Virus record (IMG/VR): IMGVR_UViG_3300013093_000004
Span: 1-54,866 of that record
Strand: one strand, 5' to 3'
Source of the DNA: a virus
DNA: 54,866 bases
Below, one piece after another: positions 142-50,483 of this stretch. A program made the translations under genes and the position numbers. Under the pieces are notes generated by a model that worked only from the letters and a program-made list of their open reading frames with translations, ran no database searches and was not told the origin of the DNA. The first letter of the stretch is position 1. The number at the start of each line of letters is the position of its first letter.

Positions 142-479
142 CGCGCCGGGCAGACATCGCGCAGCGCAATGCGCAGATCGTCGCGCGGTATCGCGCCGGG
201 AAATCGCTGAACCATCTGGCCCGGGTGTTTGGCCTGTCGCAATCACGGGTGTGGTCGATCGTGGCGTGGTCCGTTCACCCGGACGAAGCGCCGCACCGGC
301 GCGCGCTGATGGCGCCGCGGCACCGTGGCGGGCGGCGCGCGATCTGGCCCGATTGCCCGCCGGAATATCGCGACGAATACCTGCAGCTTCGGCGCGTGAT
401 CGGATCAGCGGCAGCGCGCGACCAACTGATGCGCCTGGCCCGGCGCGGTGATGGGCCCAAGCAAGCGAGGGCACGATGA
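138..479 (+). CDS. Small helix-turn-helix protein
   Basis: A basic 113-residue protein. Residues 10-45 (QIVARYRAGKSLNHLARVFG, then LSQSRVWSIV) look like a helix-turn-helix of the sigma-region-4 or resolvase type. The C-terminal half is Arg-rich and has no motif I know. It overlaps its upstream neighbour (ATGA at 138) and the ParB-like gene downstream (ATGA at 476), so it is an internal cistron of the rightward early operon. A DNA-binding role is inferred from the HTH alone; the target is unknown. Confidence 0.7.
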   Translation: MTRRADIAQRNAQIVARYRAGKSLNHLARVFGLSQSRVWSIVAWSVHPDEAPHRRALMAPRHRGGRRAIWPDCPPEYRDEYLQLRRVIGSAAARDQLMRLARRGDGPKQARAR

Positions 480-1714
480 GCCGACCAGCAACCGACCGCC
501 TGAAAGTCAACCCGCCGTTGGGCCATATGCCGGCGCTGCAATATCTGCCGCCAGCCATGCTGCGGGTCGATGACAGCTATCAGCGCACGCTGGACAGCGA
601 TGCGAGCCGGACGCTGGTGCGGCAGATCGCGCAGTATTGGAATTGGGATTTGTGCCAACCGCTGGTGGTGGCGCGGCGCGACGATGACGAATTGTACGTG
701 ATCGACGGGCAGCACCGGCTGGCTGCAGCGAGGTTGCGCGGCGACATACCCCAGCTGCCGGCGGTGGTGGTGCGGTATGCCAGCGCGGCGGATGAAGCGG
801 CCAGTTTTGTCCATCTGAACCAGCAGCGGCGACCGTTGACGCGGGTCGATCTGTTCAAGGCGGCCGTCGCATCGGGCGATAGCGAAGCGACCGCCATTTT
901 GGACGCGGTTGCGGCGGCTGGGTTGACGATCGCGCCGCATACCAACCCGACCGCGTGGAAACCCGGTCAGATTGCCAATATCGGCGGGATTGAGCAATGT
1001 TGGCGGACGCGCGGGCCGAAGGTGAGCGCCGCGGCGCTGATCGCGCTGGAACGCGCGCTGCATGGCCAGGTGCTGCAATATGCGGGCACGATGTTTCCCG
1101 GCATCGCGGCGGTGGTGGAAGCCGAGATTGGCCGGCGGCGCTGGTCGCAGCGGGCACTGAACGCATTGATCGCGATGATTGGCTGCGCAGCGCAAATAGG
1201 CTGGCGCGCGAAGGTGCATCACAAGCGCGGTGAGCAACCGAACCTGAATTTTGCGCGCGCGGCCGAACAGGTGTTTCTGGAACATTGGGCGGCGTGGTGG
1301 CCTGGGCTTTTGCCTGATGACGGGTCGGAATTGCCGGATGATGTGACACCGGCTGGCGTTGCGCCCGCGCTTTCGCCAGATGTGGCGCCGAAGCCGGCGG
1401 CGGCGGAGCCCGCGGCGAAACCTTCGCCCGCCCCAAAGCCGGCCTTTGACTGGCTGAAACCCGGCGGGGCGGCGGCGAAGGCGCCGGCGCCGAAGGCAGA
1501 GCCGAAACCCGAACCGTCGCGCGGCAAGGCGCCCAGCATCGACTGGGGCAAGGTCCGTGCACAGGTGGCACCGACGCGGGTGACAGCGGCGGGCAAAGCA
1601 TTTCGGCCCGATGACGAAGGCAAAGCATGGTGCGATCAGTGCGATCGTCGGCGGACGTGGCCGGAAATCGACGGGTGCCGGGACAAGCATTGCAGCTTTG
1701 GAGCGAAGGCATGA
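476..1714 (+). CDS. ParB/DGQHR-like nuclease-fold protein with C-terminal zinc-ribbon-like tail
   Basis: The 412-residue protein has a ParB/sulfiredoxin-like N-terminal domain over roughly residues 15-130. Visible there are a YQR motif after the first strand (DDSYQRTLD), the hallmark VIDGQHRLAAA, and a following NQQRRPLTRVDLF segment. A helical middle is followed by an Ala/Pro/Lys linker (about 285-370) and a tail with CDQC and a later C-x5-C pair that could bind zinc. DGQHR or ParB-like proteins bind nucleotides or DNA, and some members (DndB) regulate DNA modification. It overlaps both neighbours and directly precedes a Gp88-like gene, so they may act together. The family assignment is good but the role is open; a phage partition function is unlikely without a ParA. 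Confidence 0.8.
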   Translation: MSRPATDRLKVNPPLGHMPALQYLPPAMLRVDDSYQRTLDSDASRTLVRQIAQYWNWDLCQPLVVARRDDDELYVIDGQHRLAAARLRGDIPQLPAVVVRYASAADEAASFVHLNQQRRPLTRVDLFKAAVASGDSEATAILDAVAAAGLTIAPHTNPTAWKPGQIANIGGIEQCWRTRGPKVSAAALIALERALHGQVLQYAGTMFPGIAAVVEAEIGRRRWSQRALNALIAMIGCAAQIGWRAKVHHKRGEQPNLNFARAAEQVFLEHWAAWWPGLLPDDGSELPDDVTPAGVAPALSPDVAPKPAAAEPAAKPSPAPKPAFDWLKPGGAAAKAPAPKAEPKPEPSRGKAPSIDWGKVRAQVAPTRVTAAGKAFRPDDEGKAWCDQCDRRRTWPEIDGCRDKHCSFGAKA

Positions 1715-2466
1715 CGGGCCTGCGCAACCCTTCGCCGCATGCGCAGCGGCGGTTTGTCGGGCCGGCGGCGACGGCCAAGGGTTTGACCCTGCCAGCGTTT
1801 CATTCGGCGGTGCGATCGGCGCGAACGCTGTTTCCATCGCGCGTGTTTGGCGCCGCCGAAGTCGCACGGGTGCTGAAGGATGGCCACCAGAGCCGCAAGA
1901 TCGGCAAGATGATCACCAAAGGCCGGCGGCGCGGCTGGCCGATTTTCACCCTGACGCTCGAAGAGCGGGCGACGTGCCCCAGATCCTGCCAAGAATGGCA
2001 GAGCTGTTATGGCAACCGCATGCAGGCCGCCGAACGGATCGAGGCCGGGCGCGTGCTGATGAATGCGCTGTCGCATGAGGTGATCGACCTGGCCGCAGAG
2101 CATCCGCGCGGTTTTCTGGTGCGGCTGCACGTGCTGGGCGACTTTTTCAGCGCGGATTATGTGGCGTTTTGGGCCGGCCTGTTGCGGGATGTGCCGGCGC
2201 TGCACCTGTTCGGTTTTACCGCGCATGCGCCGGATTCGCCGATTGGAGCGGCGATCGGCGCGATGATGGCGGCGCACGGCTGGGACCGCGCTGCCTTTCG
2301 ATATTCGGGAGCTGCCGGGAGCGACATGGCCGCGCGGGTGATCGGCCCCGGCCAAGACGATGCGGACGGGATCCTTTGCCCGGCACAGACCGGCGGAACC
2401 GACTGCTGCGCGACATGCGCGCTGTGCTGGCACAGCCAGCGATCCATCATTTTTCGGAGGCATTGA
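1711..2466 (+). CDS. Gp88-like cysteine-rich protein
   Basis: This 251-residue product (ATG overlapping the previous TGA) matches the pattern of the phage Gp88 family. It has an N-terminal cysteine group C89, C93, C99 in ATCPRSCQEWQSCYGN, a central VRLHVLGDFFS motif, FGFTAH, and a C-terminal cluster with C223, C232, C233, C236 and C239 followed by W. The cysteine pattern and alternating strand-helix layout suggest a metal or iron-sulfur TIM-barrel protein related to radical-SAM-like families. That part is inference, since the classical CX3CX2C is not present. An upstream in-frame start at 1627 is rejected because it lies within the preceding gene. Its biochemical activity is not known. Confidence 0.75.
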   Translation: MTGLRNPSPHAQRRFVGPAATAKGLTLPAFHSAVRSARTLFPSRVFGAAEVARVLKDGHQSRKIGKMITKGRRRGWPIFTLTLEERATCPRSCQEWQSCYGNRMQAAERIEAGRVLMNALSHEVIDLAAEHPRGFLVRLHVLGDFFSADYVAFWAGLLRDVPALHLFGFTAHAPDSPIGAAIGAMMAAHGWDRAAFRYSGAAGSDMAARVIGPGQDDADGILCPAQTGGTDCCATCALCWHSQRSIIFRRH

Positions 2467-37287: not shown

Positions 37288-38607
37288 TTATGCGCGCAAG
37301 ACTGTTACATTGGCGTCCTTTTGCGTGAGTTTTGCGTGAAGTGCCGGGCCGGCGGCCTTGGTCAGGTCGGCGACGATATCGTTGATGCCGTCGCGCACCG
37401 TGGCCAGATAGCCCGGATCAAAGATCGCGTAGCGGCTGCTGGTCTTGCTGATCACGCGGTGGCCCAGCGCCATTTCGAGCTGCACCAGGTCAACGCCGCG
37501 GTTGGCCAAGATCGTGGCCATGCTGTGGCGAATAAGCTTTGGGCCCCACCCGTCGGGGATGCCCAGCTGCGCGCGGGCGCTGGTCCAGCCTGACCGAATG
37601 CCATCGACCGGGGTTTGCGTAGTGATCTCAACCTTGCGCCGATCGTCATAGCGGGTCGATTCGCGGCAGACGAACCATTCATCGGTCGCGTGCAGCCAAT
37701 TGGCCAGCAGCGGCACCACGGGCACGATCGGGCGCACCTTCTTGGTCTGGATCCGGCCGGCTGGGTTCAACGCAAACAGGCCGTGATCGCGCAGCCATTG
37801 CTCGCGCGCCGGCGCCACGCTCATGTCCAGGATCGCATCAGGCCGGGCCAGCGTGCAGATCGCGGCGATCAGGTAGCGGCGCAGTGGCATCAGGATCGCG
37901 CCGTGGCCGGCGTAGCGCCCTGCCCCGCGCAAACTGTAATCCAGCAGCTCGGCAATCGATTCGACCGACAGGCGATAGGTGCGCTGCGGCGTGACCTGGT
38001 CGCGCGTCTTGTGGGCCAGCGGAGGCACGTATTTGGTGCGGCGGGCGCGCCATGCGTGATTCAGCGCGGCTTTGAGCTGGATCACGCTCTCTTCGACGGT
38101 GCTGGCGCTGCGCGGGCGCGATTGGCCGGCGATCCAGTTGCCGGCGGCGTCCTTTTTGCGCGCGACGATTGGATCAGCGATCGCCCAGGCACGAAACCGG
38201 TCCAGCAGGCGGTCATCGATATGGTCGGGCAGTAACTGGTCGGGGATGCGGCCGGCCGCTTCTTCGATGTCCAGAAACCGCACCAGCAGCTTGATGCGCG
38301 CCTTGATCGGGTCTGCACTGGGCAGATGGCGGCCGTGTTCCTGCCAATAGTCGTTCAGCGCCGCGTGGACGGTATAAACGTCCTGTTCGGCTGGGGTTGC
38401 GCGGTGCGTCGCCAGGTAATGCTGATCGAGCGCGTCGCAGGCTACGCGAACGTCTGCCGTGCGCGTGCTTTTGCGCTGTTGTCGGCCGGCGGCGGCATCA
38501 TACCACCAGATGTACCACCGATCGCTGGCGGGTCGGCCGTCGCCGCCGCGGACGAGGTCAAGCCAGAACGGGCCCCGCTGATAGACGCCACCCTTGATTG
38601 CCGACAT
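37288..38607 (-). CDS. int: Tyrosine-family integrase
   Basis: 439 residues. The catalytic domain shows Arg255 (TLARPDAIL), Lys290 (QTKKVR), Arg360 (LIRHSMAT), His383 (LGHRV) and Tyr393 (SSRYAIF). The usual His of the H-x-x-R box is Lys357. The N-terminal part has an arm-binding look (GGVYQRGPFWLDLVR), and a core-binding helical domain follows at about 75-190. It recombines attP with a host tRNA gene. It is the last gene of the leftward operon, ending just before the terminator and attP. Its start overlaps the preceding small gene for 166 bases. Confidence 0.93.
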   Translation of the reverse strand: MSAIKGGVYQRGPFWLDLVRGGDGRPASDRWYIWWYDAAAGRQQRKSTRTADVRVACDALDQHYLATHRATPAEQDVYTVHAALNDYWQEHGRHLPSADPIKARIKLLVRFLDIEEAAGRIPDQLLPDHIDDRLLDRFRAWAIADPIVARKKDAAGNWIAGQSRPRSASTVEESVIQLKAALNHAWRARRTKYVPPLAHKTRDQVTPQRTYRLSVESIAELLDYSLRGAGRYAGHGAILMPLRRYLIAAICTLARPDAILDMSVAPAREQWLRDHGLFALNPAGRIQTKKVRPIVPVVPLLANWLHATDEWFVCRESTRYDDRRKVEITTQTPVDGIRSGWTSARAQLGIPDGWGPKLIRHSMATILANRGVDLVQLEMALGHRVISKTSSRYAIFDPGYLATVRDGINDIVADLTKAAGPALHAKLTQKDANVTVLRA

Positions 38608-38777: not shown

Positions 38778-38998
38778 CGCGCGGCCATCCTCTTGCGCTT
38801 TGGCTGATGCTGTCGGGTAATGGAGACGGTCTTTCCGAGCATCGACGGACTGAAAATCACGCTATCGCCTTTCACGCTATAATCGACGCCCTTGGTCAGC
38901 GGTTGGCCATTGCAAGACACGGTGATCTCCGGCGACGGCTGATGGAATTCGTTCCACCATTGTGCGACAGCGCGCGCGACGATCATTCGGTGCATCAT
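38774..38998 (-). CDS. Hypothetical protein, 74 residues
   Basis: It starts at ATG 38998, overlapping the DUF1643 stop, and ends in an overlap with the next gene. The start has a helical segment (RMIVARAVAQWWNEFHQPSP). A strand part follows (VSCNGQPLTKGVDYSVKGDS), and the end is basic (QPKRKRMAAR). No family is recognised. An in-frame ATG at 39103 lies inside the upstream gene and is rejected. Confidence 0.65.
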   Translation of the reverse strand: MMHRMIVARAVAQWWNEFHQPSPEITVSCNGQPLTKGVDYSVKGDSVIFSPSMLGKTVSITRQHQPKRKRMAAR

Positions 38999-39567
38999 CG
39001 CGCTGCCCTCCACAAAATCGGTTGCTGATCGGCTGGGATACGGTGCGCGCCGCGCGCCAGCGGGTGTTTCGGCGCGCCAGCGGCGGTTTTGCCCCAGCAC
39101 CACAGATCGGGGTATGGCCCCTCGCCGAACTGGATTTCTTCAACCACGTGTTCGATCCAGTCTTGGTCGCGGGCGATCGCGCCCCAGCAGACAAAGACCT
39201 GGCGAGCGTGCTTGGCCTCGATGCGCAGCACGTCGAGGTTGGTGTAATAGAGTTCGTCGCGCGCGCTCCAGTTCACCCCGCCGTTGATTTCGTCAACGAT
39301 ACGATAGACGTCGTGCGGATCGGCGCTGCACCATGGGTAGAGATTGACCGCGACATAGCCTCCGAATCCATAGAGCGCGAACCAACGGTTCCACCATCGG
39401 CTGGTCGGATCATCCTTTGTGCCGTCAGCAGCGGACGGGTTGTGGCCGATGACGCACGCGATCGGACCCGGCGCCCATTTGCGATAGAGGCGCAGGCGGT
39501 TGCGACCGTGAAAATCAGCGCGGCGTTCGGTGACCGGCTGGCCAAACAGGTCAAGGGGGTCAGTCAT
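38995..39567 (-). CDS. DUF1643 family protein
   Basis: 190 residues with the DUF1643 signature: RLRLYRKWAPGPIACVIGHN, PSAADGTKDDPT, a central GFGGYVAVNLYPWC, DVFVCWG-like (QVFVCWGAIARD) and the C-terminal LWCWGKTAAGAPKHPL. The function of the family is not established; members occur in phages and mobile elements. The conserved Asn-Pro-Ser, Asp-Pro-Thr and His near the end suggest an enzyme. It is in the middle of the overlapping left operon. Confidence 0.85.
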   Translation of the reverse strand: MTDPLDLFGQPVTERRADFHGRNRLRLYRKWAPGPIACVIGHNPSAADGTKDDPTSRWWNRWFALYGFGGYVAVNLYPWCSADPHDVYRIVDEINGGVNWSARDELYYTNLDVLRIEAKHARQVFVCWGAIARDQDWIEHVVEEIQFGEGPYPDLWCWGKTAAGAPKHPLARGAHRIPADQQPILWRAAR

Positions 39568-39688
39568 TTTCGGCCCCCAGCGCCCCGATCAGCACCAGCG
39601 GATCACCGGGTTGCATCGGCGGGTATGGCGTCTGCCATGCTGACAGCGCGCTGATGGCGGCCAGGGCGATGAATAGCGCGCGGGTCAT
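39560..39688 (-). CDS. Very small protein with hydrophobic start
   Basis: 42 residues (ATG at 39688), overlapping the genes on both sides: four bases with the upstream 71-residue gene and eight with DUF1643. The N-terminal 17 residues are hydrophobic (MTRALFIALAAISALSA) and could be a signal or anchor. The rest is Pro-rich. Support is the overlap pattern; it is too small for a firm call. Confidence 0.45.
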   Translation of the reverse strand: MTRALFIALAAISALSAWQTPYPPMQPGDPLVLIGALGAEND

Positions 39689-39900
39689 GCGTCACCGCCT
39701 TTCGAGGCTGCGATAACGCCGCGAACAGAGGGCAAGATGGGTTCGCGGTTCAACGCGGTAATTGCCTGTTGGTCCAAAGGGGAGCGCGCCCAATCAAACT
39801 TCGGAAGGGCAAATTCGGCAATGTCAGCGTACCGGCTGCAAGCCTCCACCAGCCCCGCATTGACCGCCCGCAGCCGCGCGCGCTTGTCGGTGTCAATCAT
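39685..39900 (-). CDS. Hypothetical protein, 71 residues
   Basis: It begins at ATG 39900 (ATGA with the upstream stop). It is helical and charged (RARLRAVNAGLVEACSRYAD), then has an Ile/Pro-rich middle (EFALPKFDWARSPLDQ). I know no family. It belongs to the chain of coupled left-operon genes. Confidence 0.6.
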   Translation of the reverse strand: MIDTDKRARLRAVNAGLVEACSRYADIAEFALPKFDWARSPLDQQAITALNREPILPSVRGVIAASKGGDA

Positions 39901-40184
39901 GACTTCACCTCGTCGGTTTTGGCGAACACCACGCGCGCCGACCATGCGTCGGCGCCGCGCGAATGCTGGGGGAACTTGTGGCGATCGAGCGCGGCGCTGA
40001 GCGCGCGGTAACAGCCCGGCGGTCCGCCTCTGTTTGGCGCGTTGTGGCTGGCGGGATCCGGGTAGAGCTTTTCGGCCAGTTGATCGAAGCGCATCGAGCC
40101 GCCGGCGGCGACCAGCGCGGCCTGAATGCGGTCTTTGATCGGCAGCTTGCGCGCGCGATAGCTGGGGTGCCAAGCGCGGGTCAT
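39897..40184 (-). CDS. Small winged-helix-like protein
   Basis: 95 residues. The segment IKDRIQAALVAAGGSMRFDQ, then LAEKLYPD, resembles the start of a winged helix as in small phage regulators. A Gly/Pro-rich loop and RALSAALDRHKF follow. It is basic overall. It overlaps the methyltransferase stop and the next gene. A DNA-binding role is possible, but no family is assigned. Confidence 0.6.
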   Translation of the reverse strand: MTRAWHPSYRARKLPIKDRIQAALVAAGGSMRFDQLAEKLYPDPASHNAPNRGGPPGCYRALSAALDRHKFPQHSRGADAWSARVVFAKTDEVKS

Positions 40185-40822
40185 GCGGCATTTGCCGGAT
40201 AATCATCGGCGCGTTCAAGCCGGCGGCGACACGGCGCGATCCAGTCGAAGCGCGTCCCCTCTTCGCCCATGATCCACACCAGCCACGCATAGGCCGTCGC
40301 GGTCGATCCTTCGGGCGCCAACCGGCCCTTGTGCATCACGACGCGTTCGGTGAATTGCAGCACATGGGTCGGGGGGTTCTTGGCAAACAGCCGCTCGTAA
40401 CGCCCCTGCCCTTCCAAAAACGCTGCGCGCACGATCATGGCGACGCCGCACTCGCTGGTAAGGAACGCGCGCTCGATGAACTGCTCGGCCAGCTTGAACG
40501 GCGGATTGGTGATGGTCCAATCGACAGGCCGGGGCGGCGGCCCAAACAGATAATCTTGGACCAAGTAGCCCGCGCCATAATCATGCACGTCGCTGGCGAT
40601 CACGCACCCGAAATACTCGGCCAGCGGCTTGACCATGTGGCCGCGATTCGCTGCCGGTTCGCGCGCGGTCATGTCGTTCCAATCTTCCGGCTCGACGCAC
40701 CAGTTTGCGCGCAGCCATTCGCACAACGCGCGGGTGGCCCAAGGCGGCGTAGGAAAATCGTCCAAGCTGTCGTGCGGCTCGACGCGGCGCTGCATGACGG
40801 CGGTGCTACGGTTCTGGGTCAT
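40181..40822 (-). CDS. DNA adenine methyltransferase-like protein
   Basis: 213 residues from ATG 40822. NPPF (106-109) is the amino-methyltransferase motif IV. EPAANRGHM (55-63) replaces the usual EPxxGxG SAM-binding motif I, and IASDVHDYG is motif II-like. It would methylate adenine or cytosine N4 in DNA and so protect the phage from restriction. The motif I variation (Ala-Ala-Asn in place of Cys-Gly-Gly) is seen in many phage enzymes of this type. It overlaps the PAPS-reductase-like gene by ATGA and may work with it. Confidence 0.8.
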   Translation of the reverse strand: MTQNRSTAVMQRRVEPHDSLDDFPTPPWATRALCEWLRANWCVEPEDWNDMTAREPAANRGHMVKPLAEYFGCVIASDVHDYGAGYLVQDYLFGPPPRPVDWTITNPPFKLAEQFIERAFLTSECGVAMIVRAAFLEGQGRYERLFAKNPPTHVLQFTERVVMHKGRLAPEGSTATAYAWLVWIMGEEGTRFDWIAPCRRRLERADDYPANAA

Positions 40823-42006
40823 GATCCGACCAACTCCCTGAAAAGGATCGGCTGGGTCGATCCATCGCCATAGACCGTATCGAGCCACAGATCGGCGCGC
40901 GGTTCATCACCATCCCAGCGGTCCGGGAAAGTGCCGGCGGCGATCAGTTCGCGAATGCGGGCCTCTTCTTCGGGGTTGATCAGGTCGACTTGCGCGCGCG
41001 CTTGAATATCGAGAATGCGCTCCAATGCCTCGCTGCGCGCTTCAAGCGTCAATGGCCCCATGCGCTGGGGGTTTTTGCCGATGCTGCCATCCTTCAGCCG
41101 CTCCACGCCGCGCTTGCGCAGGCGCTGCTTCGGCTGGCGCATCCAGCGATAGATCGGCTTCAATTCCAAAAGCGGCGCCAGATGCGCCCAGGCCGGCATC
41201 GCGATGATGTTTTCCAGCGCGGTGTCGCGTTGCGCGAGCGGGCAGCCGATGCAGCCGGTGCGCGCGTTGATCTCAGTCGCATCGTCGCCGCCATAGGCAT
41301 CGGCAAGGATTTGCGTCGGCCACCCGCCGAATTCTGGCATCGGCGCGTAGACCTTCAGCCAATCCCAGATCCAGCACACCCGCCAATGCAGCAGCGGCGC
41401 GAGTGTGGCGATCCGGCCCTTGACGCCCTTCGCTTCGGGCAAGATTTGCTGATACCAACCCTGGCCGCACTCGGCGCCGTCTTTTGAGCATGACATGGCG
41501 ATGCGGCCGTCGCGGATCGCGCTTTCGCCTTGGCGCACACCGGTGAGCATCAGCGCGGTGCCGGGCAAAGCGGCCATGGCGTCGATAAGCGCGCTGGCCA
41601 TCGGCTCGACTTTGATCTGGCGGGTGCACCAACGCAGCGTGTTGTTGTTCGGCGGCGGCACACCACGGCCCAAGATGTAGACCATGAACCGCTTGTCGAG
41701 CGGCGCGCGCACGATGTGCAGCCGGATCCAGTTGATGCCGCGCAGCATGGCCATGATCTGTTCGGCGCTGCGCTGGATCGGCGGCAATTCCTGCCGCGTG
41801 TCGGCATAGAAGACGTGCAACACCTCCGGCTGGGGCAACAAGCCGGCCTGAATCAGATGAACCACGATCGTCAGCAGCGCGGTGCTGTCTTTGCCGCCGG
41901 ACCAGGCCAAAGCATAGTGCTGGTGGTTGCCCCAATAGGCGCGAAGTGACTGCAATGTCAGTTCGACGCCTTCGGCATGCACTGCCTGAATGCTGATATC
42001 GCTCAT
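40819..42006 (-). CDS. PAPS-reductase-family, DndC-like protein
   Basis: 395 residues from ATG 42006. The pyrophosphatase loop SGGKDS (36-41) and the conserved RWCTRQIKVEP (Cys127) are clear, and TGCIGCPL (Cys252, Cys255) with Cys173 and Cys180 could bind an iron-sulfur cluster. This combination is typical of DndC-like members, which activate by adenylation and transfer sulfur in DNA phosphorothioation, rather than of CysH sulfate reductases. No DndD, DndE or IscS partner is present here. It overlaps the methyltransferase gene and so may belong to a DNA-protection function. Confidence 0.85.
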   Translation of the reverse strand: MSDISIQAVHAEGVELTLQSLRAYWGNHQHYALAWSGGKDSTALLTIVVHLIQAGLLPQPEVLHVFYADTRQELPPIQRSAEQIMAMLRGINWIRLHIVRAPLDKRFMVYILGRGVPPPNNNTLRWCTRQIKVEPMASALIDAMAALPGTALMLTGVRQGESAIRDGRIAMSCSKDGAECGQGWYQQILPEAKGVKGRIATLAPLLHWRVCWIWDWLKVYAPMPEFGGWPTQILADAYGGDDATEINARTGCIGCPLAQRDTALENIIAMPAWAHLAPLLELKPIYRWMRQPKQRLRKRGVERLKDGSIGKNPQRMGPLTLEARSEALERILDIQARAQVDLINPEEEARIRELIAAGTFPDRWDGDEPRADLWLDTVYGDGSTQPILFRELVGS

Positions 42007-42254
42007 GCCAGCCCTGCCCGGCGCAGCCAGTCGGCCAGCTTCGCCTCGACCTGCGCGCGCGCGTCTTCGACGGTCTTTGCGGTGCGCCAAATGGCGGTGT
42101 GGTGATCCAAATCGAAAAACCAAGCCGGCTGGGATTTGTGGCCGCCACGTTCCAATACGCGGCCGACCGGAACCTCGCCCAGATAGAGCAATTCGAGGCT
42201 GCACCACGGGCGCCAGGCAATGTTCGCCGGCAGGGTGACTGGGCGGGCGGTCAC
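42003..42254 (-). CDS. Hypothetical protein, 83 residues
   Basis: It starts at GTG 42254 (GTGA overlap with the upstream stop) and overlaps the DndC-like gene. It is compact alpha/beta: WCSLELLYLGEVPVGRVLER, then WFFDLDHHTAIWRTAKTVED, ending in a charged helix. The layout is like small phage proteins with a single beta-sheet that sit beside DNA-metabolism genes. No family can be named. Confidence 0.65.
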   Translation of the reverse strand: MTARPVTLPANIAWRPWCSLELLYLGEVPVGRVLERGGHKSQPAWFFDLDHHTAIWRTAKTVEDARAQVEAKLADWLRRAGLA

Positions 42255-42493
42255 GCCAGCACCCGCGCGATGTGGTTGGCGTACACCCCGACCGCTTTCC
42301 AATAGAGGGCCATGGGCGCCTTATGGGTGGCCCAACACTTGGCCGCGCGGCCCCTCGCATCGTCCCTGATCGCCAACAGGACGGCACGCACCCGTTGGCG
42401 TTCGGCTGGGGTCAGTTCGACCAATGCAAGTTTGGCCGCCTGCAAGCCGAGGATGGGGTTGCGCACCTCGCGGCGCGCCGAACGGTCGCTCAT
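42251..42493 (-). CDS. Hypothetical helical protein, 80 residues
   Basis: It overlaps the HNH gene upstream and the 83-residue gene downstream. It is basic and almost all helix (AERQRVRAVLLAIRDDARGR, then ALYWKAVGVYANHIARVL). Nothing diagnostic is visible. It could be an accessory to its neighbours, to which it is translationally coupled. Confidence 0.6.
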   Translation of the reverse strand: MSDRSARREVRNPILGLQAAKLALVELTPAERQRVRAVLLAIRDDARGRAAKCWATHKAPMALYWKAVGVYANHIARVLA

Positions 42494-43140
42494 CTCCGCT
42501 GCGCCTCCTTCATCGCCTGTTCGACCTGAGCGATGGCCAGCACGGTCGGTTTCAGTTCGGCTGGGGCATCGTCATAGGCAATGCGCCGGCGCCAGCGGCC
42601 GCCGTTGAGCCGGGGCAGCAGGTTGCGCGGGATCAGAATCCAGTTTGACGGGTCGGTATTGAGCGGGTTGCTGTCCAGGCATTTGAGCGCGTGGCCCTCG
42701 GGCAATGGCCCGTTGACCGCTTCCCAATTGATCAAGTGCACCGCGCGCCAACGCTTGTGGAACGGCATGTCATCGTTGATCTTGCGTTCGAGATAGCCGT
42801 CGATGATGCGTTCGGACCCGATCGGTTTGTAATTGCGCGATGCCTTGCCGCTGCGCTGGCCCTTGCGAAACTGCGTGGCACGGGCATTGGGGTGTTTCCC
42901 GCCGCGACCCTCTTCGCATTTCACGCCCTTGTTGTGCGGCAGCTGACCGCGCGCGAATTGACCGGTGCGGCCGGTGCGCCAACCTTTGCGCTTGCGCAGG
43001 GCGTGGAGGTGGCCCGCAGTGACATCGGCGCGATCAAACCGGGCGACGAACGCCGCGTGATAGTCGGCGATCGGCATGGTGTGGTGTTCGAACAACCAGG
43101 CCATCTGCTGTTCGGTGTAGATGATCGCGCGGCCCTTCAT
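42490..43140 (-). CDS. HNH homing-type endonuclease
   Basis: 216 residues. The N terminus has an HTH-like start (IYTEQQMAWLFEHHTMPIAD). The C-terminal HNH core runs WRAVHLINWEAVNGPLPEGH, then LKCLDSNPLNTDPSNWILIP, then RNLLPRLN, with the HNH_3 spacing. Proteins of this form are often free-standing homing endonucleases in phages, here embedded in a tightly overlapping operon rather than interrupting a gene, so it may be a normal phage nuclease. The basic central linker should bind DNA. Confidence 0.8.
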   Translation of the reverse strand: MKGRAIIYTEQQMAWLFEHHTMPIADYHAAFVARFDRADVTAGHLHALRKRKGWRTGRTGQFARGQLPHNKGVKCEEGRGGKHPNARATQFRKGQRSGKASRNYKPIGSERIIDGYLERKINDDMPFHKRWRAVHLINWEAVNGPLPEGHALKCLDSNPLNTDPSNWILIPRNLLPRLNGGRWRRRIAYDDAPAELKPTVLAIAQVEQAMKEAQRR

Positions 43141-43424
43141 GCCGGCACCCGCTTGCGTGCAGCGGTCAGCCAGTTGCCGATCGCCTGGCCGATGCCTTGG
43201 GTCGATGATGCGCTGATGCCGGCCAAGACAAATCGGCTGGCATCAGACTTGGTGTTGAACCGCGCGCCGAATTGCGTGAACAGCCTAGCACACAGCAGCC
43301 TCATTTGGGCATCATAGCGGCGGTGATAGGCCATCGGGTCATCGCCCAATGTGCCGGCACACCGGCGCGCGTCGGCGTACTGGGCTTCAACCTGGCGAAT
43401 GATATCGGCCAGCGGCTGGTTCAT
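43137..43424 (-). CDS. Hypothetical helical protein, 95 residues
   Basis: It starts at ATG 43424, overlapping the upstream gene's stop. It is helical and soluble (QPLADIIRQVEAQYADARRC, then RYDAQMRLLCARLFTQFGAR), followed by a Ser/Gly-rich segment and a basic end. It could be a small DNA-associated or dimerising factor. No family is recognised. Confidence 0.6.
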   Translation of the reverse strand: MNQPLADIIRQVEAQYADARRCAGTLGDDPMAYHRRYDAQMRLLCARLFTQFGARFNTKSDASRFVLAGISASSTQGIGQAIGNWLTAARKRVPA

Positions 43425-43696
43425 TGGTCGCCGCCCCCGATCAAGCGCGGCTGGGCCGGCGCGGCGATCGGCGCGATCTGCGCGACCATGCCCTTGAACC
43501 GATCGCCATGCTGCGCCAGCACGGTGACTGCCTCCAGCTGCACTTGCGAGCTGTGGATGATCTGTTCGGCGATCTGCACCACCGCCTTGGCGCGCTGGCA
43601 CTCGGCCTCGATATCCTCGGGCGTCTTGCAATCCTCTGACAGGCGATCGAGCTGCGCGAACAGGTGGTTGTTCAAATCGTTGAGCGTGCTGGTCAT
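43421..43696 (-). CDS. Hypothetical coiled-coil protein, 91 residues
   Basis: It starts at ATG 43696, overlapping a possible 21-residue frame upstream. Most of the protein is one long amphipathic helix (NDLNNHLFAQLDRLSEDCKT, then AKAVVQIAEQIIHSSQVQLE), ending in a Pro/Ala-rich tail. Small coiled-coil proteins of this kind occur in many phage early operons. Function unknown. Confidence 0.65.
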   Translation of the reverse strand: MTSTLNDLNNHLFAQLDRLSEDCKTPEDIEAECQRAKAVVQIAEQIIHSSQVQLEAVTVLAQHGDRFKGMVAQIAPIAAPAQPRLIGGGDQ

Positions 43697-43758
43697 GACT
43701 GATCCTCGATCGGCTGAAATGGGAAAGCGCCCTGCCCGGCCCGATGCGCGCCGGTCAT
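43693..43758 (-). CDS. Possible 21-residue microprotein bridging two genes
   Basis: A 22-codon frame starts at ATG 43758, in an ATGA overlap with the gene before it, and ends with TGA at 43693, in an ATGA overlap with the gene after it. The product (MTGAHRAGQGAFPFQPIEDQ plus S) fills exactly the only gap in this coupled series. The double overlap argues for translation. Size prevents a firm call, and it may serve only to pass ribosomes on. Confidence 0.4.
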   Translation of the reverse strand: MTGAHRAGQGAFPFQPIEDQS

Positions 43759-43919
43759 TCCACCACCTCGAAATTCCGGGTGCGGTAATTGGTGCGAGCG
43801 ACTTCGGCCTCGATCTGGGCGAGCGTCATCACCTCGGTCTTGACCGTGCGACCGCCGCCGGGGGTGACCACGAAGAATTCAACGCGGTAACGGGTGTTGG
43901 GGTTTGCGCGGCGGGTCAT
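43755..43919 (-). CDS. Hypothetical protein, 54 residues
   Basis: It starts at ATG 43919 (overlap with the acyl-carrier-like gene) and overlaps the microprotein frame. It is a compact beta-alpha unit (TRYRVEFFVVTPGGGRTVKT, then MTLAQIEAEVARTNY). A longer frame starting at 44030 would lie inside the upstream gene and is rejected. Function unknown. Confidence 0.6.
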   Translation of the reverse strand: MTRRANPNTRYRVEFFVVTPGGGRTVKTEVMTLAQIEAEVARTNYRTRNFEVVE

Positions 43920-44146
43920 GCTGTGGTGGTTTCCATGGTGGCGATCACGTCGGCGATGGTGCGCCATTGTTCGAGCGTGGTGTCGCTGATGCGGATATCG
44001 AGCTGGTCTTCCAGCTCCATGGCGATGCATTGACGGTCCAGGCCATCGAGGCCCAGATCATCGATCAAAGTGGCCGCTTCGAACGGCTGGTCGCAGATGG
44101 TGACGTCCGCGATGACCGCGCGCAGGGTTTCCAGCGGATCAGGCAT
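43916..44146 (-). CDS. Acyl-carrier-protein-like protein lacking the carrier serine
   Basis: 76 residues with the four-helix acyl carrier pattern: a first helix, the loop with TLIDDLGLDGLDRQCIAMEL, an acidic helix II (EDQLDIRIS), and a last helix (EQWRTIADVIATM). Carrier proteins have DSL at the start of helix II for the phosphopantetheine; here it is Asp34-Gly35-Leu36. The protein therefore cannot carry an acyl group in the normal way. It may be a decoy or protein-interaction module. It overlaps both neighbours in the left operon. Confidence 0.75.
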   Translation of the reverse strand: MPDPLETLRAVIADVTICDQPFEAATLIDDLGLDGLDRQCIAMELEDQLDIRISDTTLEQWRTIADVIATMETTTA

Positions 44147-44630
44147 CGGCGTTCACGAACATCGCGTCGCCGAACAATTCGATCCATTGCGGCTGGTCGA
44201 CCGGGTTCAGATCGCCGTTGACGATCAACGCGATGGTCGCCGCGATCCGGGCCAGCGCATCATCGTCGCCAGTCGCAACGATCTGGGCGCCAAACACCCG
44301 TGCATAATAGTGATCGACCGGCATGATGTGGCCCTGGACGATCGAGCCGCGCGGCGCGCGCGGATCCATGGCCATCACCCACAACTCGTGCGTGGCGCCG
44401 GGCACCTTGATTTCGACCAAGTCATGCTGGTGGGCCGGGCGCAGGTGCAGCAACGCGACATGGCAACTGTGCACCGCGTGATGGGCGCCCGGCGCCGACA
44501 CGATCCAATCGCCGATCACCGCGTCGTGCTGCGGTTTGATGCGGTGGCGCGCCAGCGCCGCGGCGCGGTTGCAAGCCCATGCGGCACCGTGCGTGCCAGC
44601 GTGGTCGGCTGGGGGCATGTTATCGAGCAT
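44139..44630 (-). CDS. Hypothetical His-rich protein, 163 residues
   Basis: It begins at ATG 44630 (or 44618), overlapping the HD-type gene. The sequence has many His residues (KPQHDAVIGDWIVSAPGAHH, AVHSCHVALLHLRPAHQHDL) and a beta-rich middle (VEIKVPGATHELWVMAMDPR). The His cluster might bind metal, but there is no known motif. It may be an enzyme of unknown class that goes with the HD hydrolase and acyl-carrier-like protein on either side. Confidence 0.6.
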   Translation of the reverse strand: MLDNMPPADHAGTHGAAWACNRAAALARHRIKPQHDAVIGDWIVSAPGAHHAVHSCHVALLHLRPAHQHDLVEIKVPGATHELWVMAMDPRAPRGSIVQGHIMPVDHYYARVFGAQIVATGDDDALARIAATIALIVNGDLNPVDQPQWIELFGDAMFVNADA

Positions 44631-45246
44631 CGAGCACGCTCCTGACTTGGTGATAGAATTCGATGAACCGCCGGGCCGCTTCGTCGGCTGGCCACGGATC
44701 GATGACGAAATCGAATGGTTCGATGCCGCTGATCGCCCGCCACTTGTCGAAATTGGCGTGAGGCATCAGATCGCGCTTTTCGGTCGCCAGCATCCGCAGG
44801 TCATAGCGTTTGACCAGGGCATGGTGATTGTGCCCCACTTCAAAGCGCGCATCGATGGCGTGCGCGCTCCGCTTGATCAGCGCGCGCAGTTCGGCTGGCA
44901 AAAGCGATTTGGCTGGGCTGGGAAAATCGCCCCACACCACCTCGTCGCTTTCATGCATCAGGCCCTGATAGATCGCCGGCCACGAATGACCTTCGCGCGC
45001 CATCTGCCGCGCCAGCAACACGCAATGCTGCGCCACGAAATAGAGCATGCGCCGGCCCGGCACGCGGTTGGGACCGACAGCTTCGCGCGTCTGGCCGGAA
45101 AAGCGCGGACGCAGCAAACCCCAGGCATAATCCTCGATCGTCATCGCCGCTGCATCGGGGGTGACGAAATCGAAATAGGCGCCATCGCCCAGCATGATCG
45201 TCGGGCCGCTGATCCGGCGTGCGGCTGGTGCGGCCTGATCAGGCAT
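44620..45246 (-). CDS. HD-domain hydrolase, YfbR-like
   Basis: 208 residues. FVAQHCVLLARQMAREGHSW, then IYQGLMHESDEVVWGDFPSP, then AK, matches phage HD proteins related to 5'-deoxynucleotidase YfbR (usual form LLHDxxEAxxGDxxxPxK). The second metal ligand pair is His98-Glu99 instead of His-Asp, so metal binding may be altered. A nucleotide monophosphatase or related activity is inferred. The gene overlaps DUF5131 upstream and a His-rich protein downstream. Confidence 0.75.
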   Translation of the reverse strand: MPDQAAPAARRISGPTIMLGDGAYFDFVTPDAAAMTIEDYAWGLLRPRFSGQTREAVGPNRVPGRRMLYFVAQHCVLLARQMAREGHSWPAIYQGLMHESDEVVWGDFPSPAKSLLPAELRALIKRSAHAIDARFEVGHNHHALVKRYDLRMLATEKRDLMPHANFDKWRAISGIEPFDFVIDPWPADEAARRFIEFYHQVRSVLDAR

Positions 45247-46336
45247 GGGGCACCGCCGGCAGACCGTTGTGCTCGACGCCGTCCAGCAGGCGGCCGGCGC
45301 GCGCTTTGCCGACGGCGCTCAACAACGTAACGCTGCGTCCATGGCCGGCGTATGCCCGCCTTGGATTTATCATCTCGATCGCGCCACACGCACAATCACG
45401 AGCCCCATCAGCGATCGGGATCGTATAACTATCCGGCGCCCACTCTCCCCACTGCTTAAAATGAAACGGCACGCCAGCGGCGGCGCACTGGTCGCGCAGC
45501 GATCGAGCCCAGTCCGGGTGCATCGGTCGGGCGCCGGGGCCGCTTTCGCCGCCGACGATTACCCAGTCGATAGTTGGGTCAAACGCCCAATTTCCATCAG
45601 CGGACGGAATTGAATACCGCCATGATGCGTCAGATGGGCAATTTTGGCACCGATATTCCGGTTCGCCACCGCAGCAGGCACCGGTTGGGTCAAGCCATTG
45701 CAACAAATCGATTTCGCCCAGCAGTGGTTCGCATGACAGGAACCGCACCCATGCCGGCGTAGCCAGCAAGTCGGGGATTCGTTCTTCGGCGCGCTGCTGG
45801 TCCTCGACGCTGACACCAAGCCAGACATTCGGGAGCGGCCACCATGCAGCGCCTGGCCGAATGTGCGGCAGCGGCACCACCACGAGTTTGTCGCCGCGCT
45901 CACGCCTGATCTTGATTGCCGCGTCGGCGATGCGACCTACCGCCCCGGCCATGTATTCCCGCATCCGCGCGCTGCGCTTGGTCAGGATCATGTGCGTGTG
46001 GTGCGGGGTCAGCGCGCAGACCGCAAAAACCCGGTCGATCCATGCGTCGGGCACCGCCAGGTGAAACAGATCGCCGTGCGCGTTCCAGAAAATCCGGCGC
46101 GGGCGTTTCCATGCCAGCGGTTGCATCAGCGCCGGCTCGTGCAAGCGCACGCGGCCGCTCCACACCGGTCCGGCTTTGGTGTCGATCGTCAATCCTTCGC
46201 GGGTCGGGTGGTGCTTCAACCGCGTGCCGGCAAGGCGCATGGCGTAGCAGTTCGTGCAGCCCGGCGAGACCACCGAGCAACCGTTGATGGCGTTGACCGT
46301 GGCATCGGCCCATTCGATTTTGGTGTTGTCGGACAT
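45239..46336 (-). CDS. DUF5131 / phage Gp37-Gp68 family, radical-SAM-like
   Basis: 365 residues. It begins NTKIEWADATVNAINGCSVV, then SPGCTNCYA, with Cys20, Cys27 and Cys30, the hallmark of this family; GDLFHLAVPDAWIDRVFAV and the C-terminal VIVGGESGPGARPMHPDWAR also agree. The family has a TIM-barrel with a cysteine cluster like radical SAM enzymes, though spacing differs from CX3CX2C. Its substrate is unknown. A middle insertion has further Cys pairs (CCGGEPEYRCQNC) that may form a zinc finger. It is one of the larger enzymes in the left operon. Confidence 0.85.
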   Translation of the reverse strand: MSDNTKIEWADATVNAINGCSVVSPGCTNCYAMRLAGTRLKHHPTREGLTIDTKAGPVWSGRVRLHEPALMQPLAWKRPRRIFWNAHGDLFHLAVPDAWIDRVFAVCALTPHHTHMILTKRSARMREYMAGAVGRIADAAIKIRRERGDKLVVVPLPHIRPGAAWWPLPNVWLGVSVEDQQRAEERIPDLLATPAWVRFLSCEPLLGEIDLLQWLDPTGACCGGEPEYRCQNCPSDASWRYSIPSADGNWAFDPTIDWVIVGGESGPGARPMHPDWARSLRDQCAAAGVPFHFKQWGEWAPDSYTIPIADGARDCACGAIEMINPRRAYAGHGRSVTLLSAVGKARAGRLLDGVEHNGLPAVPHA

Positions 46337-46339
46337 CGC

Positions 46340-46864
46340 TCAGGCCTCCCAATCGGCGGCCAGCAGCGCATCGAGCGGCTGGGGATCAGGGTCGCTGGCC
46401 GTGATCTGGTCAGGCGGGGACAGCTCGCGCAGGTATTGCTGAGCGGCGTCCAGGGCGCGCATGGTCGCATTCAGCTTGCCAACGACCACGCCAAGGTAAA
46501 CGTGGTCCAGATCGGGCAAATCAGCGACTTGCGCGATCGGGATTAACGCGCCGACAGCGCCAACCAATTCGGCGAGCATGGCGTTGGCGCGATCACGATC
46601 CTGTTCGGCGATCGAGGCTTTGCTGGCCAGCTCGTCGGCGGCGGCGCGCTGCGCGGCCAGCGTGGTGTCTGCCTGCATCTGATGCCAGATCAACGCCGCC
46701 TGCGCGGCGGTTTTGGCGCCGATGGAACGCATCAAGTTGGCGCGGTGGATTTCGACCGTGCGACGGCTGATGCCGAAAGCGTGCGCGATCTGCTTGTTTT
46801 GCTGACCAGCAGCCAGCAGTTCGAGCACCTGGCGCTGGCGCTGCGGCAATTCGTCCAGGGTCAT
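46340..46864 (-). CDS. LuxR-type HTH regulator with coiled coil
   Basis: 174 residues from ATG 46864. The N-terminal 60 residues are a LuxR/GerE HTH (LPQRQRQVLELLAAGQQNKQ, IAHAFGISRRTVEIHRANLM). A coiled coil of about 45 residues follows (AAQRAAADELASKASIAEQD), and the C terminus is helical. There is no receiver domain, so it would act by oligomerisation alone. It lies early in the left operon and could adjust phage or host genes during infection. A longer frame (to 47113) covers the neighbour and is rejected. Confidence 0.78.
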   Translation of the reverse strand: MTLDELPQRQRQVLELLAAGQQNKQIAHAFGISRRTVEIHRANLMRSIGAKTAAQAALIWHQMQADTTLAAQRAAADELASKASIAEQDRDRANAMLAELVGAVGALIPIAQVADLPDLDHVYLGVVVGKLNATMRALDAAQQYLRELSPPDQITASDPDPQPLDALLAADWEA

Positions 46865-46886
46865 GATTGGCGCTTTCGATGTCGGT

Positions 46887-47108
46887 TCAATCGGCGATTT
46901 CGTATTCGGCGATGTCGAACGGATGGGCCGGCCGACTGATCGACCAGCGCGTGGGCGGCCGACCATCGGCGGCTGGCCAAGAACCGCTGGCGTGGCTGGT
47001 CCAGCCATTGACCAAGCGGACGTGGACGCGGCGATATCCGGTGATTTCGCCGGTTTCTGGGTGGACGATGGCGCAATCGTCCGGGCAGCGGCCGGGATTG
47101 GGGCGCAT
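46887..47108 (-). CDS. Hypothetical protein, 73 residues
   Basis: A soluble protein with strand-like content (CAIVHPETGEITGYRRVHVR, then LVNGWTSHASGSWPAADG) and an acidic end (DIAEYEIAD). It sits 22 bases upstream of the LuxR-type gene and one base after its own upstream neighbour. Two Cys lie in the first 12 residues. No family is recognised. Confidence 0.55.
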   Translation of the reverse strand: MRPNPGRCPDDCAIVHPETGEITGYRRVHVRLVNGWTSHASGSWPAADGRPPTRWSISRPAHPFDIAEYEIAD

Positions 47109-47109
47109 G

Positions 47110-47319
47110 TCATTGCCCGGCGCCCTGCAGTGTCAGCAGCTTGCTGACCTCATGACGCATGGCAAATGCATCGTCGCGCTCGCCGCGTTCGAAACACTGC
47201 GCCTCGACCTCGTGCCCCTTGCCGCGCAGGCGTTCGGCGCAATTGAGGCGTGCGGCGGCCATGATGTGCGCCGGCGCCGAGACAGGCGGCAACGGCGGGA
47301 TCGGGCCGTGGGCGCTCAT
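47110..47319 (-). CDS. Hypothetical protein, 69 residues
   Basis: It starts at ATG 47319, overlapping the preceding gene. A Pro-rich start (HGPIPPLPPVSAPAH) is followed by a helical basic part with two Cys (ARLNCAERLRGKGHEVEAQC). No known motif is present. It is part of the coupled left operon. Confidence 0.55.
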   Translation of the reverse strand: MSAHGPIPPLPPVSAPAHIMAAARLNCAERLRGKGHEVEAQCFERGERDDAFAMRHEVSKLLTLQGAGQ

Positions 47320-48562: not shown

Positions 48563-49426
48563 TTACAGGCCGACAGTAGCCGTCATGGCAAGAAAATCGG
48601 TTTCGGCGATGATGCGGACAGGGTGGCCGGCGGCTTGCATCGCCTCTGCCTTGCGGTGTTTCGAACTTTTGGCGTGGCCGGCCAGTTTCGACAGATCCTG
48701 ATCCCCGACCACCAGCATGGTGGTTCGTTCTGTCACCAGACTGTCGACAACAGCGCCCATGCGATGCGCCAGATCAGCGGCAGTGTTGCGCTGGAAAACC
48801 AGCTTTCCAGTGAACACCACGGTTTCACCGTGCAATGGACCTTCGTCGCCGGCTGGGCGTTTGACCGAGTTGCGATCTTGGGCCGTGATTGGATTGCGCT
48901 GGTGATTGATCCAGTCGGCGATCGTCAGACCGCTATCGCGAACGGCGTGCAGAAAAATGTGGCCTGCCGCGCGTGCATCGTGTTCGGCGTCATGGTGCTG
49001 AAACGCGAGGCCAAGGCGATCGGCCAGCGGGCGCAAGCCATAGCCCCGCTGCGCAACATCTGGCCAAGTTCGCCGCGCCACCTTTGCGCTGTCGATCCAG
49101 ATGCATTCAATCGAAGGCAATCCAGCGTGTGCGCAAGCCTGCTGAATCGATACGCGGTCAAAATGGGTGTGATGCACGACGATCGCGCCTTGCAGCGCAG
49201 AAGCCAAGCCAGTGTGATAGTCGGAGAAGATCGGCGCCTCTGCGACGGCGGCGGCATCGATCCCGTGGATCGAAACATTGACCGGGTCGAACCAGGTCTG
49301 CGGATCGATCAACCAATTGTGCGAACCCACCTCGTTGCCTGCTTCGTCGAATACGACCAACCCGATCTGGCAAATGCTGCCCATGAAAGCGTTGGCAGTT
49401 TCCACATCGAGCGCGACGAAGCCCAT
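48563..49426 (-). CDS. DEDDh 3'-5' exonuclease fused to a BRCT domain
   Basis: 287 residues from ATG 49426, overlapping the lipoprotein stop. The exonuclease part (1-165) has Asp7 and Glu9 in FVALDVETAN, Asp90 in HHTHFDRVS, and His145 and Asp150 in HHDAEHDARA, the full DEDDh set. The last 90 residues are a BRCT domain (GETVVFTGKLVFQRNTAADL, then MGAVVDSLVTERTTMLVVGD, and SSKHRKAEAMQAAG). This fusion occurs in bacterial epsilon-like exonucleases. Here it is third in the repressor operon, so it is likely made in the lysogen and could act on damaged or foreign DNA. Confidence 0.88.
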   Translation of the reverse strand: MGFVALDVETANAFMGSICQIGLVVFDEAGNEVGSHNWLIDPQTWFDPVNVSIHGIDAAAVAEAPIFSDYHTGLASALQGAIVVHHTHFDRVSIQQACAHAGLPSIECIWIDSAKVARRTWPDVAQRGYGLRPLADRLGLAFQHHDAEHDARAAGHIFLHAVRDSGLTIADWINHQRNPITAQDRNSVKRPAGDEGPLHGETVVFTGKLVFQRNTAADLAHRMGAVVDSLVTERTTMLVVGDQDLSKLAGHAKSSKHRKAEAMQAAGHPVRIIAETDFLAMTATVGL

Positions 49427-49791
49427 CAAATTCGCCCGGAACAATCGGCGATCGCGAAGCGCCCCGATGAATGACTGGCGCGTGCCAACCGGCCATCAAT
49501 CAAGATCTGGCATTCGATGTAATCTTCGTCGGCTTGATCGAGCTGCGCCGACAGGAACACCCGGTCGCCGCTGGTGACGATGTCATCCTGGGACCAGGGC
49601 AGAAAAACGCCAAGTTCGTCCATACCGCCCGATTTGTTGACCATGCGGACCTTGGCGATCTCGCTCGGCAAATCAGGATGCTCTTTTTTCCAATCCGGCG
49701 AACCGATCACGCGGTATGTGATTTTGTGCTGCGTCGGGCTGCAAGAGATGAGGGCAAGCGACAATCCGGCGAGTGCCAAGCCCGCGCGCAT
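49426..49791 (-). CDS. Lipoprotein with MmpS-like beta domain, in the repressor operon
   Basis: 121 residues from ATG 49791, one base after the repressor stop. A signal peptide ends in the lipobox LALISC (Cys17). The mature part has the pattern of the small MmpS-like beta domain: KITYRVIGSPDW, VRMVNKSGGM, LPWSQ, then YIECQILIDGRLAR and FAIADCSG, with a Cys pair that could form a disulfide. It would be attached to a membrane, facing the periplasm or the outside. Because it is transcribed with the repressor, it is a candidate lysogenic conversion or superinfection exclusion factor; this is inference. Confidence 0.75.
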   Translation of the reverse strand: MRAGLALAGLSLALISCSPTQHKITYRVIGSPDWKKEHPDLPSEIAKVRMVNKSGGMDELGVFLPWSQDDIVTSGDRVFLSAQLDQADEDYIECQILIDGRLARASHSSGRFAIADCSGRI

Positions 49792-49792
49792 G

Positions 49793-50398
49793 TCAAAGAC
49801 CCGCGCTGCTGCCATAGGCCACCACCCGGCCGACAACGGTGATCGGATGATCACCGATTACGATCGGCTGGTGCACCGGGTTGTGCGAATCCGGCGCAAA
49901 GCGCGCCGGTGATTCCTGGTACCGCTTCACGGTGCCCTCTCCGCCTCCATTCATGATCAGATAGACCCGGCCAGGGTAAAGATCGCGCTGATCAGGATCA
50001 ATGATCGCCCAGCAGCCGTGTGGCATGACACGATCCATGCTGTCGCCATAGACTTCGACCGCAAATGCTTGGTTTTCGCCTTTCACGCGCAATCTGGGGA
50101 TGTGATACACCGGCAACTCGACAGCTTCCTGCCATGATCCGGCGGCGGCGATACCGATGACCGGGACCATGACCACGTTCGACGGGTCTGCGTTTTCCTG
50201 TTCTGCCTCTCCCAAACCAAGGAATTCGGCCAGCACGTCCATTTCGTGCTGCTGAATCCGGCGGGTGCCCTTTTTGATTTCGGTGATGCGTGACGCCCCG
50301 ACGCCAAGGAAATCGGCGATCTGTTTGCCGGTGAAGCAACGCTTTTCCAACGCGGCCAGCAGCGCGCTGCGAATCTGATCATGCGTCACGATGGCCAT
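49793..50398 (-). CDS. cI: CI/LexA-like phage repressor (S24 peptidase)
   Basis: 201 residues from ATG 50398. Residues 7-60 are a Cro/CI-type HTH (FTGKQIADFLGVGASRITEI). The C-terminal S24 domain has Ser120 in VYGDSMDRVM and Lys158 in TVKRYQ, and the Ala86-Gly87 bond in IGIAAAGSW is the likely self-cleavage site. RecA-stimulated cleavage would induce the prophage. It probably binds the five TTACG-N5-CGTAA sites. It has no Shine-Dalgarno before the ATG; the transcript may be leaderless as with lambda cI. In-frame codons up to 50443 lie within the operators. Confidence 0.92.
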   Translation of the reverse strand: MAIVTHDQIRSALLAALEKRCFTGKQIADFLGVGASRITEIKKGTRRIQQHEMDVLAEFLGLGEAEQENADPSNVVMVPVIGIAAAGSWQEAVELPVYHIPRLRVKGENQAFAVEVYGDSMDRVMPHGCWAIIDPDQRDLYPGRVYLIMNGGGEGTVKRYQESPARFAPDSHNPVHQPIVIGDHPITVVGRVVAYGSSAGL

Positions 50399-50407
50399 GC
50401 CGGCACA

Positions 50408-50483
50408 TTGCGGAAATCGTAATGCAGATTCTATAACGAACATCGTAATAATCCGGGTTGCTTTGAATTTACGAATATCGTAA
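50408..50483. promoter_or_regulatory. Right operator triple between repressor and cro
   Basis: Sites: TTGCGGAAATCGTAA (50408-50422), TAACGAACATCGTAA (50434-50448) and TTACGAATATCGTAA (50469-50483). The third is a perfect 5+5 palindrome and the other two differ in one base of the left arm. The spacing of centres is 26 and 35. Binding would cover both pR and the repressor's own promoter. Confidence 0.85.

Follow-up and report, generated by a model that had tools for sequence, protein, structure and literature searches.

The virus record IMGVR_UViG_3300013093_000004 (positions 1 to 54,866, the whole of which is called the window here) is a 54.9-kb sequence whose plus strand carries genes for terminase, portal and tail. 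On the minus strand, a block of genes spans from an S24-type repressor (49793–50443) to a tyrosine integrase (37288–38607). The integrase-proximal part of this block is occupied by genes for a DUF5131 protein, an HD-superfamily protein, a His-rich protein, an acyl-carrier-like protein, an HNH endonuclease, a DndC-like PP-loop enzyme, a DNA methyltransferase and a DUF1643 protein, which a sequence-only reading had joined into a possible nucleic-acid modification system. The operon is a patchwork of independently gained and lost cargo genes, and not one dedicated DNA-modification pathway. We see about an even chance that it is a mosaic cargo ('moron') operon with a standalone DndC-family enzyme, likely protecting or marking phage or prophage DNA.

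All eight genes are present on the minus strand at the place where that reading had put them, and most of its labels are right. The family matches are strong for the DUF5131, HD, HNH, DndC-like, methyltransferase and DUF1643 proteins and moderate for the acyl-carrier-like protein; the His-rich protein has none.

For comparison, 80 phage loci with relatives of the DndC-like gene and 80 with relatives of DUF5131 were fetched. Neighbouring genes were analysed by coding selection and profiles, since DNA of high guanine-plus-cytosine content yields shadow open reading frames (ORFs). A tree was built from 146 DndC-like proteins encoded by phages and by bacterial genomes, on which the neighbour state of DUF5131 was its presence within 3.5 kb. 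One near-identical record (L002/L082; IMGVR_UViG_3300013094_000110, 41.9 kb), with 100% protein identity for all surveyed genes from repressor to integrase, was left out of the neighbour counts. Apart from this record, no sampled relative has kept the full gene set, and most of the gene pairs can be found apart. On the tree, the DUF5131 state requires 16 changes most simply, at least 13 of them forced; that of DUF1643 requires 9 changes for 10 carriers, and that of any DNA methyltransferase 45. Whole-record profile searches found DUF5131 in 16 of 50 DndC-like records (34 are without it) and the DndC-like gene in 5 of 50 DUF5131 records, a sixth match being marginal (E 2e-4). Near the DndC-like gene of viral relatives, an HD gene occurs in 2 of 85 cases and an HNH gene in one, while the acyl-carrier-like and His-rich genes occur near none. 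Independent gain and loss among relatives, specified beforehand as the pattern that would count against a single route, is what the tree and the record counts both show. The enzyme identities and the nucleic-acid theme of the sequence-only reading are upheld; its single modification route is rejected, because the neighbouring genes have come and gone independently.

A dedicated DNA-modification pathway made up of all these genes is therefore highly improbable, although it can draw on several features. The genes overlap tightly: along the chain from DUF5131 to the small gene at 39897, consecutive genes overlap by 4–11 bp, the one exception being a gap of about 58 bp ahead of 43696, and DUF1643 is set apart from the chain by 329 bp. 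Because of these successive overlaps, the chain is very probably a single unit of transcription and translation. DUF5131 is also commoner in DndC-like records than in terminase-anchored ones (16/50 against 1/40, Fisher p 0.0003), though the host range of the control may differ. Terminase-anchored records were used as the control set; scans with the window's DUF2303 and ParB genes gave too few loci. In four loci (L004, L010, L016 and L036) DUF5131, DndC-like and DUF1643 genes lie together within 4 kb, with differing gene orders. Set against this, besides the gain and loss on the tree and the rarity of the HD, HNH, acyl-carrier-like and His-rich genes near the DndC-like gene, is the state of the acyl-carrier-like protein, which reads DGLD in place of the DSLD of acyl carrier proteins. 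The phosphopantetheine serine is kept in two phage relatives; with this attachment site lost, a carrier role is unlikely for the protein as sequenced. Moreover, DUF5131 has a stronger partner elsewhere. In 31 of 79 DUF5131 loci (L083–L161) there is an ASCH-domain or 'GRKTQTRR' gene (no Pfam family) within 3 kb, with a near/far ratio of about 10. This is its strongest partner outside the window and likely its functional one, and it is absent from the window.

The key protein is the DndC-like enzyme (40819–42006, minus strand), which in phages is named 'PAPS reductase', after phosphoadenosine phosphosulfate (PAPS). It matches the phrog_12882 profile at E 1.5e-208 over residues 9–391, a match along the full length. 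Against TIGR03183, the DndC equivalog model, it scores 92.7 bits (E 2e-26), well below the cut-off of 290.4. The PADLOC models for SspD (2.5e-10) and BrxP (4.4e-14) also match. SspD and BrxP are the PAPS-reductase-like subunits of the Ssp and type 4 BREX systems; they share the PP-loop domain with the window protein, and their matches are weaker. No other Ssp or BREX component was matched among the operon proteins scanned.

The protein was aligned with a genuine DndC, that of Aliivibrio, taken from a dndBCDE plasmid. The PP-loop motif SGGKDS, the RWCT motif and a CxxC pair are common to both, and the similarity extends into part of the C-terminal region. Three further cysteines, C173, C180 and C211, are invariant in the family of the window protein and have no counterpart in the genuine DndC compared; the segment with C173 and C180 shows a poor alignment to DndC and low model confidence. 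In total, six cysteines are invariant across 86 family members. The gene is under strong purifying selection, since dN/dS (nonsynonymous over synonymous rates) is 0.11, 0.11, 0.10 and 0.20 against four relatives. By its sequence the enzyme falls within the DndC family and is no DndC equivalog; most likely it works as a standalone sulfur-transfer or adenylating enzyme.

The predicted structure has fold matches to reductases of PAPS and of adenosine phosphosulfate (APS), to FAD synthase and to LarE, with TtuA also listed. A PDB sequence search with the DndC-like and DUF5131 families gave no match. The folds bear on two other functions. The database names suggest a PAPS/APS reductase carried as an auxiliary metabolic gene, which would boost sulfate assimilation in the infected cell. 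This is very unlikely here. The Pfam PAPS_reduct match (9.5e-9) and the resemblance in fold to CysH and APS reductases are in line with it, and it has been proposed for phages vB_EliS-R6L and Y8A (PMC5463345, PMC10434257), but in its similarity and in the order of its motifs the protein goes with DndC, no further gene of sulfate assimilation turned up in the operon, and the neighbours are DNA methyltransferases. A thiolase of tRNA or nucleotides, which would sustain translation or counter tRNA-targeting defences, is quite unlikely. Its fold would be that of tRNA PP-loop sulfurtransferases, in keeping with the TtuA match; however, the window has no tRNA gene, among named proteins the nearest relatives are DndC and other enzymes of DNA defence, and DNA methyltransferases again are the company kept.

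The sequence-only reading had noted that the known partners of DndC are missing, and this proved correct. No DndD or DndE was matched in the window by searches that detected both in a control Dnd plasmid, DndE is absent from the 50 relatives searched, and there is no Aminotran_5 match in the window that would indicate a cysteine desulfurase. Dnd systems are described as sharing an invariant DndD–DndE core, and according to the same paper housekeeping desulfurases can stand in for DndA (PMC10853773). As the core is absent, the window does not encode a Dnd system.

The recurrent company of the DndC-like gene is DNA methyltransferases. Their density is 8.1 per 100 kb up to a distance of 3 kb from the gene and falls to about 2 per 100 kb beyond it; helicase and repressor genes show no such gradient. 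With broader methyltransferase queries over 166 loci, 74 copies were counted within 3 kb and 26 at 3–10 kb, which is about twice the sequence (near/far ratio 5.3, p about 1e-15). A methyltransferase lies within 3 kb in 69 of these loci. In all five annotated isolates inspected, it directly adjoins the DndC-like gene or is separated from it by a single small gene. A 5-methylcytosine (5mC) enzyme stands upstream with a 4-bp overlap in Pseudomonas phage Dobby and in Rhizobium phage RR1-A, Pseudomonas phage phiC725A has a 5mC and an adenine enzyme downstream, Rhizobium phage RHph_N28_2 has two methyltransferases downstream, and Microcystis phage Mae-JY29 has one beside the gene, again with a 4-bp overlap. 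In the window the partner is of the phrog_799 type, as in RHph_N28_2, while other phages of the family use 5mC or N6/N4 enzymes. Because the adjoining methyltransferases belong to unrelated classes, the pairing arose many times. When 107 other genes neighbouring the DndC-like gene were tallied by Pfam family, no further family recurred.

On the basis of these observations, we propose that the members of the mosaic operon would be interchangeable anti-restriction, nucleotide and regulatory genes, and not subunits of one pathway. The DndC-like enzyme would activate its substrate with ATP at the PP-loop (by adenosine monophosphate/pyrophosphate chemistry), and sulfur would be relayed via its cysteines, probably also via an iron-sulfur cluster, with both sulfur and clusters drawn from the Isc/Suf machinery of the host. 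Such chemistry is suggested by the family to which the sequence belongs. The enzyme may work alone or with the overlapping DNA methyltransferase, the two most likely being carried as anti-restriction or lysogeny cargo. A nucleic acid is the presumed substrate because of the DndC homology and the methyltransferase company; the target is probably DNA, and the presumed purpose of the DndC-like/methyltransferase cargo is protection from restriction or a marking of phage or prophage DNA. It is unlikely that the proposal can be taken as far as a solo DndC-family enzyme that, with its own extra cysteines, sulfurates the backbone or the bases of DNA in the absence of DndD and DndE, at sites set by whichever methyltransferase is its neighbour.

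Several points weigh against this proposal. DndC has a further cysteine, Cys287, beside the CxxC pair, and the family of the window protein has no cysteine aligned with it. In 97 of the 166 loci no methyltransferase was detected within 3 kb; the query set is incomplete, yet the partner is clearly optional. The methyltransferase enrichment was counted on relatives, which are not independent samples, and it may partly reflect both kinds of gene settling in the same cargo niche. Such shared settlement can account for part of all the non-random company, that of DUF5131 included: of 79 DndC-like loci, 25 have a tyrosine integrase on the same strand no more than 4.5 kb downstream, in keeping with a cargo position, and none has one upstream.

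The position of the genes bears on the chief rival to the mosaic reading, which is a defence expressed in lysogeny. Here the genes between repressor and integrase would be transcribed in the prophage and shield the lysogen from other phages, and the DndC-like enzyme would be part of a modification-based defence. The order of repressor, cargo and integrase on one strand resembles that of Thermus phages IN93 and Tsatsa, in which an S24/LexA-type repressor, variable accessory genes and an integrase likewise share a strand, and for which it has been argued that the layout forms a defence locus expressed in the prophage (PMC11437467). The cargo differs: a methyltransferase, DndC-like, DUF5131 and DUF1643 genes in the window, and HEPN or lipoprotein genes in the Thermus phages. 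Both DUF5131 and the DndC-like protein match PADLOC models, and solo SspD and DndC genes have been reported in Sinorhizobium meliloti prophages (PMC12429752). However, the only recognised effector is the HNH gene, whose pairing with the DndC-like gene is not conserved (found in 1 of 79 other loci), and a promoter scan was uninformative. We consider prophage defence rather unlikely.

The nearest forms of the window enzyme are in the phrog_12882 family of the Pseudomonas aeruginosa phages Dobby and phiC725A, Rhizobium phage RR1-A and prophages of Sphingomonadaceae, with 60–87% identity over nearly the full length. They have all the invariant cysteines, an adjacent DNA methyltransferase and often the cargo position upstream of an integrase. 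Genes for PAPS-reductase or DndC-like proteins have repeatedly been noted in phages without an assigned function, and earlier reports describe lone DndC/SspD-like genes of prophages and phages, with their function left open (PMC12429752, PMC11437467, PMC5463345). The window adds one more member to these. What may be new is the recurrent pairing with methyltransferases of unrelated classes, along with the cysteines specific to the family. The survey separates the DndC-like enzyme from its accidental neighbours, shows that it is under strong selection and names DNA methyltransferases as its most recurrent company. Since simple arrangements exist in the isolates Dobby, phiC725A and RR1-A, the question of whether lone DndC-like enzymes modify phage DNA is directly testable.

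The remaining proteins of the operon were also analysed. The DUF5131 protein (45239–46336, minus strand, as are all the genes that follow in this and the next paragraph) matches PF07505 at 4.8e-94, with a profile score of 314.8 bits against a cut-off of 28.9. Its cysteines C20, C27 and C30 (spacing Cx6Cx2C) are invariant in 20 relatives, and the canonical radical S-adenosylmethionine (radical-SAM) spacing Cx3Cx2C is not present. The top PDB fold match of its model is spore photoproduct lyase, a radical-SAM enzyme of DNA repair, with a probability of 0.93, a weak E of 0.011 and a TM score of about 0.36. The model supports the description 'radical-SAM-like', with no function transferable from it. 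A literature search returned no paper naming DUF5131 together with 'phage'. The HD-superfamily protein (44620–45246; phrog_318, 1.1e-40) is of the deoxynucleoside monophosphate 5'-phosphatase type. In the window protein and its two closest relatives HE replaces the HD of the H...HD...D metal site found in most others, and these two relatives likewise adjoin DUF5131. The His-rich protein (44139–44630) matched no family in profile searches and has one relative, at 34%, in L129. The acyl-carrier-like protein (43916–44146) matches PF00550 (PP-binding) at 4.2e-7.

Six extra small ORFs are scattered among the eight named genes. The first lies at 43755–43919, in the ORF list, with a start taken from the ORF translation. 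The second (43421–43696) encodes a small phage protein of phrog_2044, which pairs with the HNH gene in L054, L106 and L312; the label 'RNA polymerase beta subunit' given to phrog_2044 looks wrong, as the profile has only 78 positions. A third (43137–43424), without a Pfam match, overlaps by 4 bp on either side. The HNH endonuclease gene follows at 42490–43140 (PF13392, HNH_3, 2e-7; phrog_1891, 3.6e-39), then an ORF with a 4-bp overlap and relatives in L023, L035 and L040 (42251–42493), and one of uncertain start (42003–42302) that has a relative in L103 and reaches 4 bp into the DndC-like gene. The DNA methyltransferase (40181–40822; phrog_799, 1.4e-55, and alignment), which has an NPPF motif, overlaps the stop of the DndC-like gene by 4 bp; its start is most likely the ATG at 40822, rather than the GTG at 40888 that heads the open frame. 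The sixth ORF (39897–40184) has a 4-bp overlap and no Pfam match. DUF1643 (38995–39567; PF07799, 2.2e-20) is the last gene before the integrase (PF00589, 1e-7), which forms the 3' border of the cargo region.

The 5' end of the cargo strand is marked by the repressor, which is of the LexA/CI type with a helix-turn-helix (HTH) domain and a Peptidase_S24 domain (PF00717, 2.8e-18). A LuxR/GerE-type HTH regulator (46340–47113, minus strand; PF00196, 3.4e-17) lies 3 bp upstream of DUF5131 and possibly controls the cargo block. A scan for promoters and terminators found nothing above chance. The phage is a temperate siphophage, probably of a sphingomonad host, the host being suggested by the nearest named relatives, Novosphingobium and Croceicoccus. 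A DnaQ-type exonuclease–BRCT fusion is encoded at 48563–49444 (minus strand), within the same block.

It is worth adding some observations on other neighbours of DndC-like genes. A ParB-like DUF6551 gene (476–1714, plus strand) in the window overlaps a GP88-like gene with three cysteines (1627–2466, plus strand; CPRSCQEWQSC). The two genes are found together again in L300 and, less tightly, in L273, both times near a DndC-like gene, and in L003 a ParB-like gene adjoins the DndC-like gene. ParB/DUF6551 was considered as a regular partner, being adjacent in L003 and L273, yet the family is found in only 2 of 50 DndC-like records and the candidate was rejected. Finally, a cluster of genes (u208; L025:6791–7318 and relatives) encodes proteins of about 170 residues without a Pfam match; about 16 of 79 phage loci have such a gene no more than 3 kb from the DndC-like gene, usually between it and the integrase.

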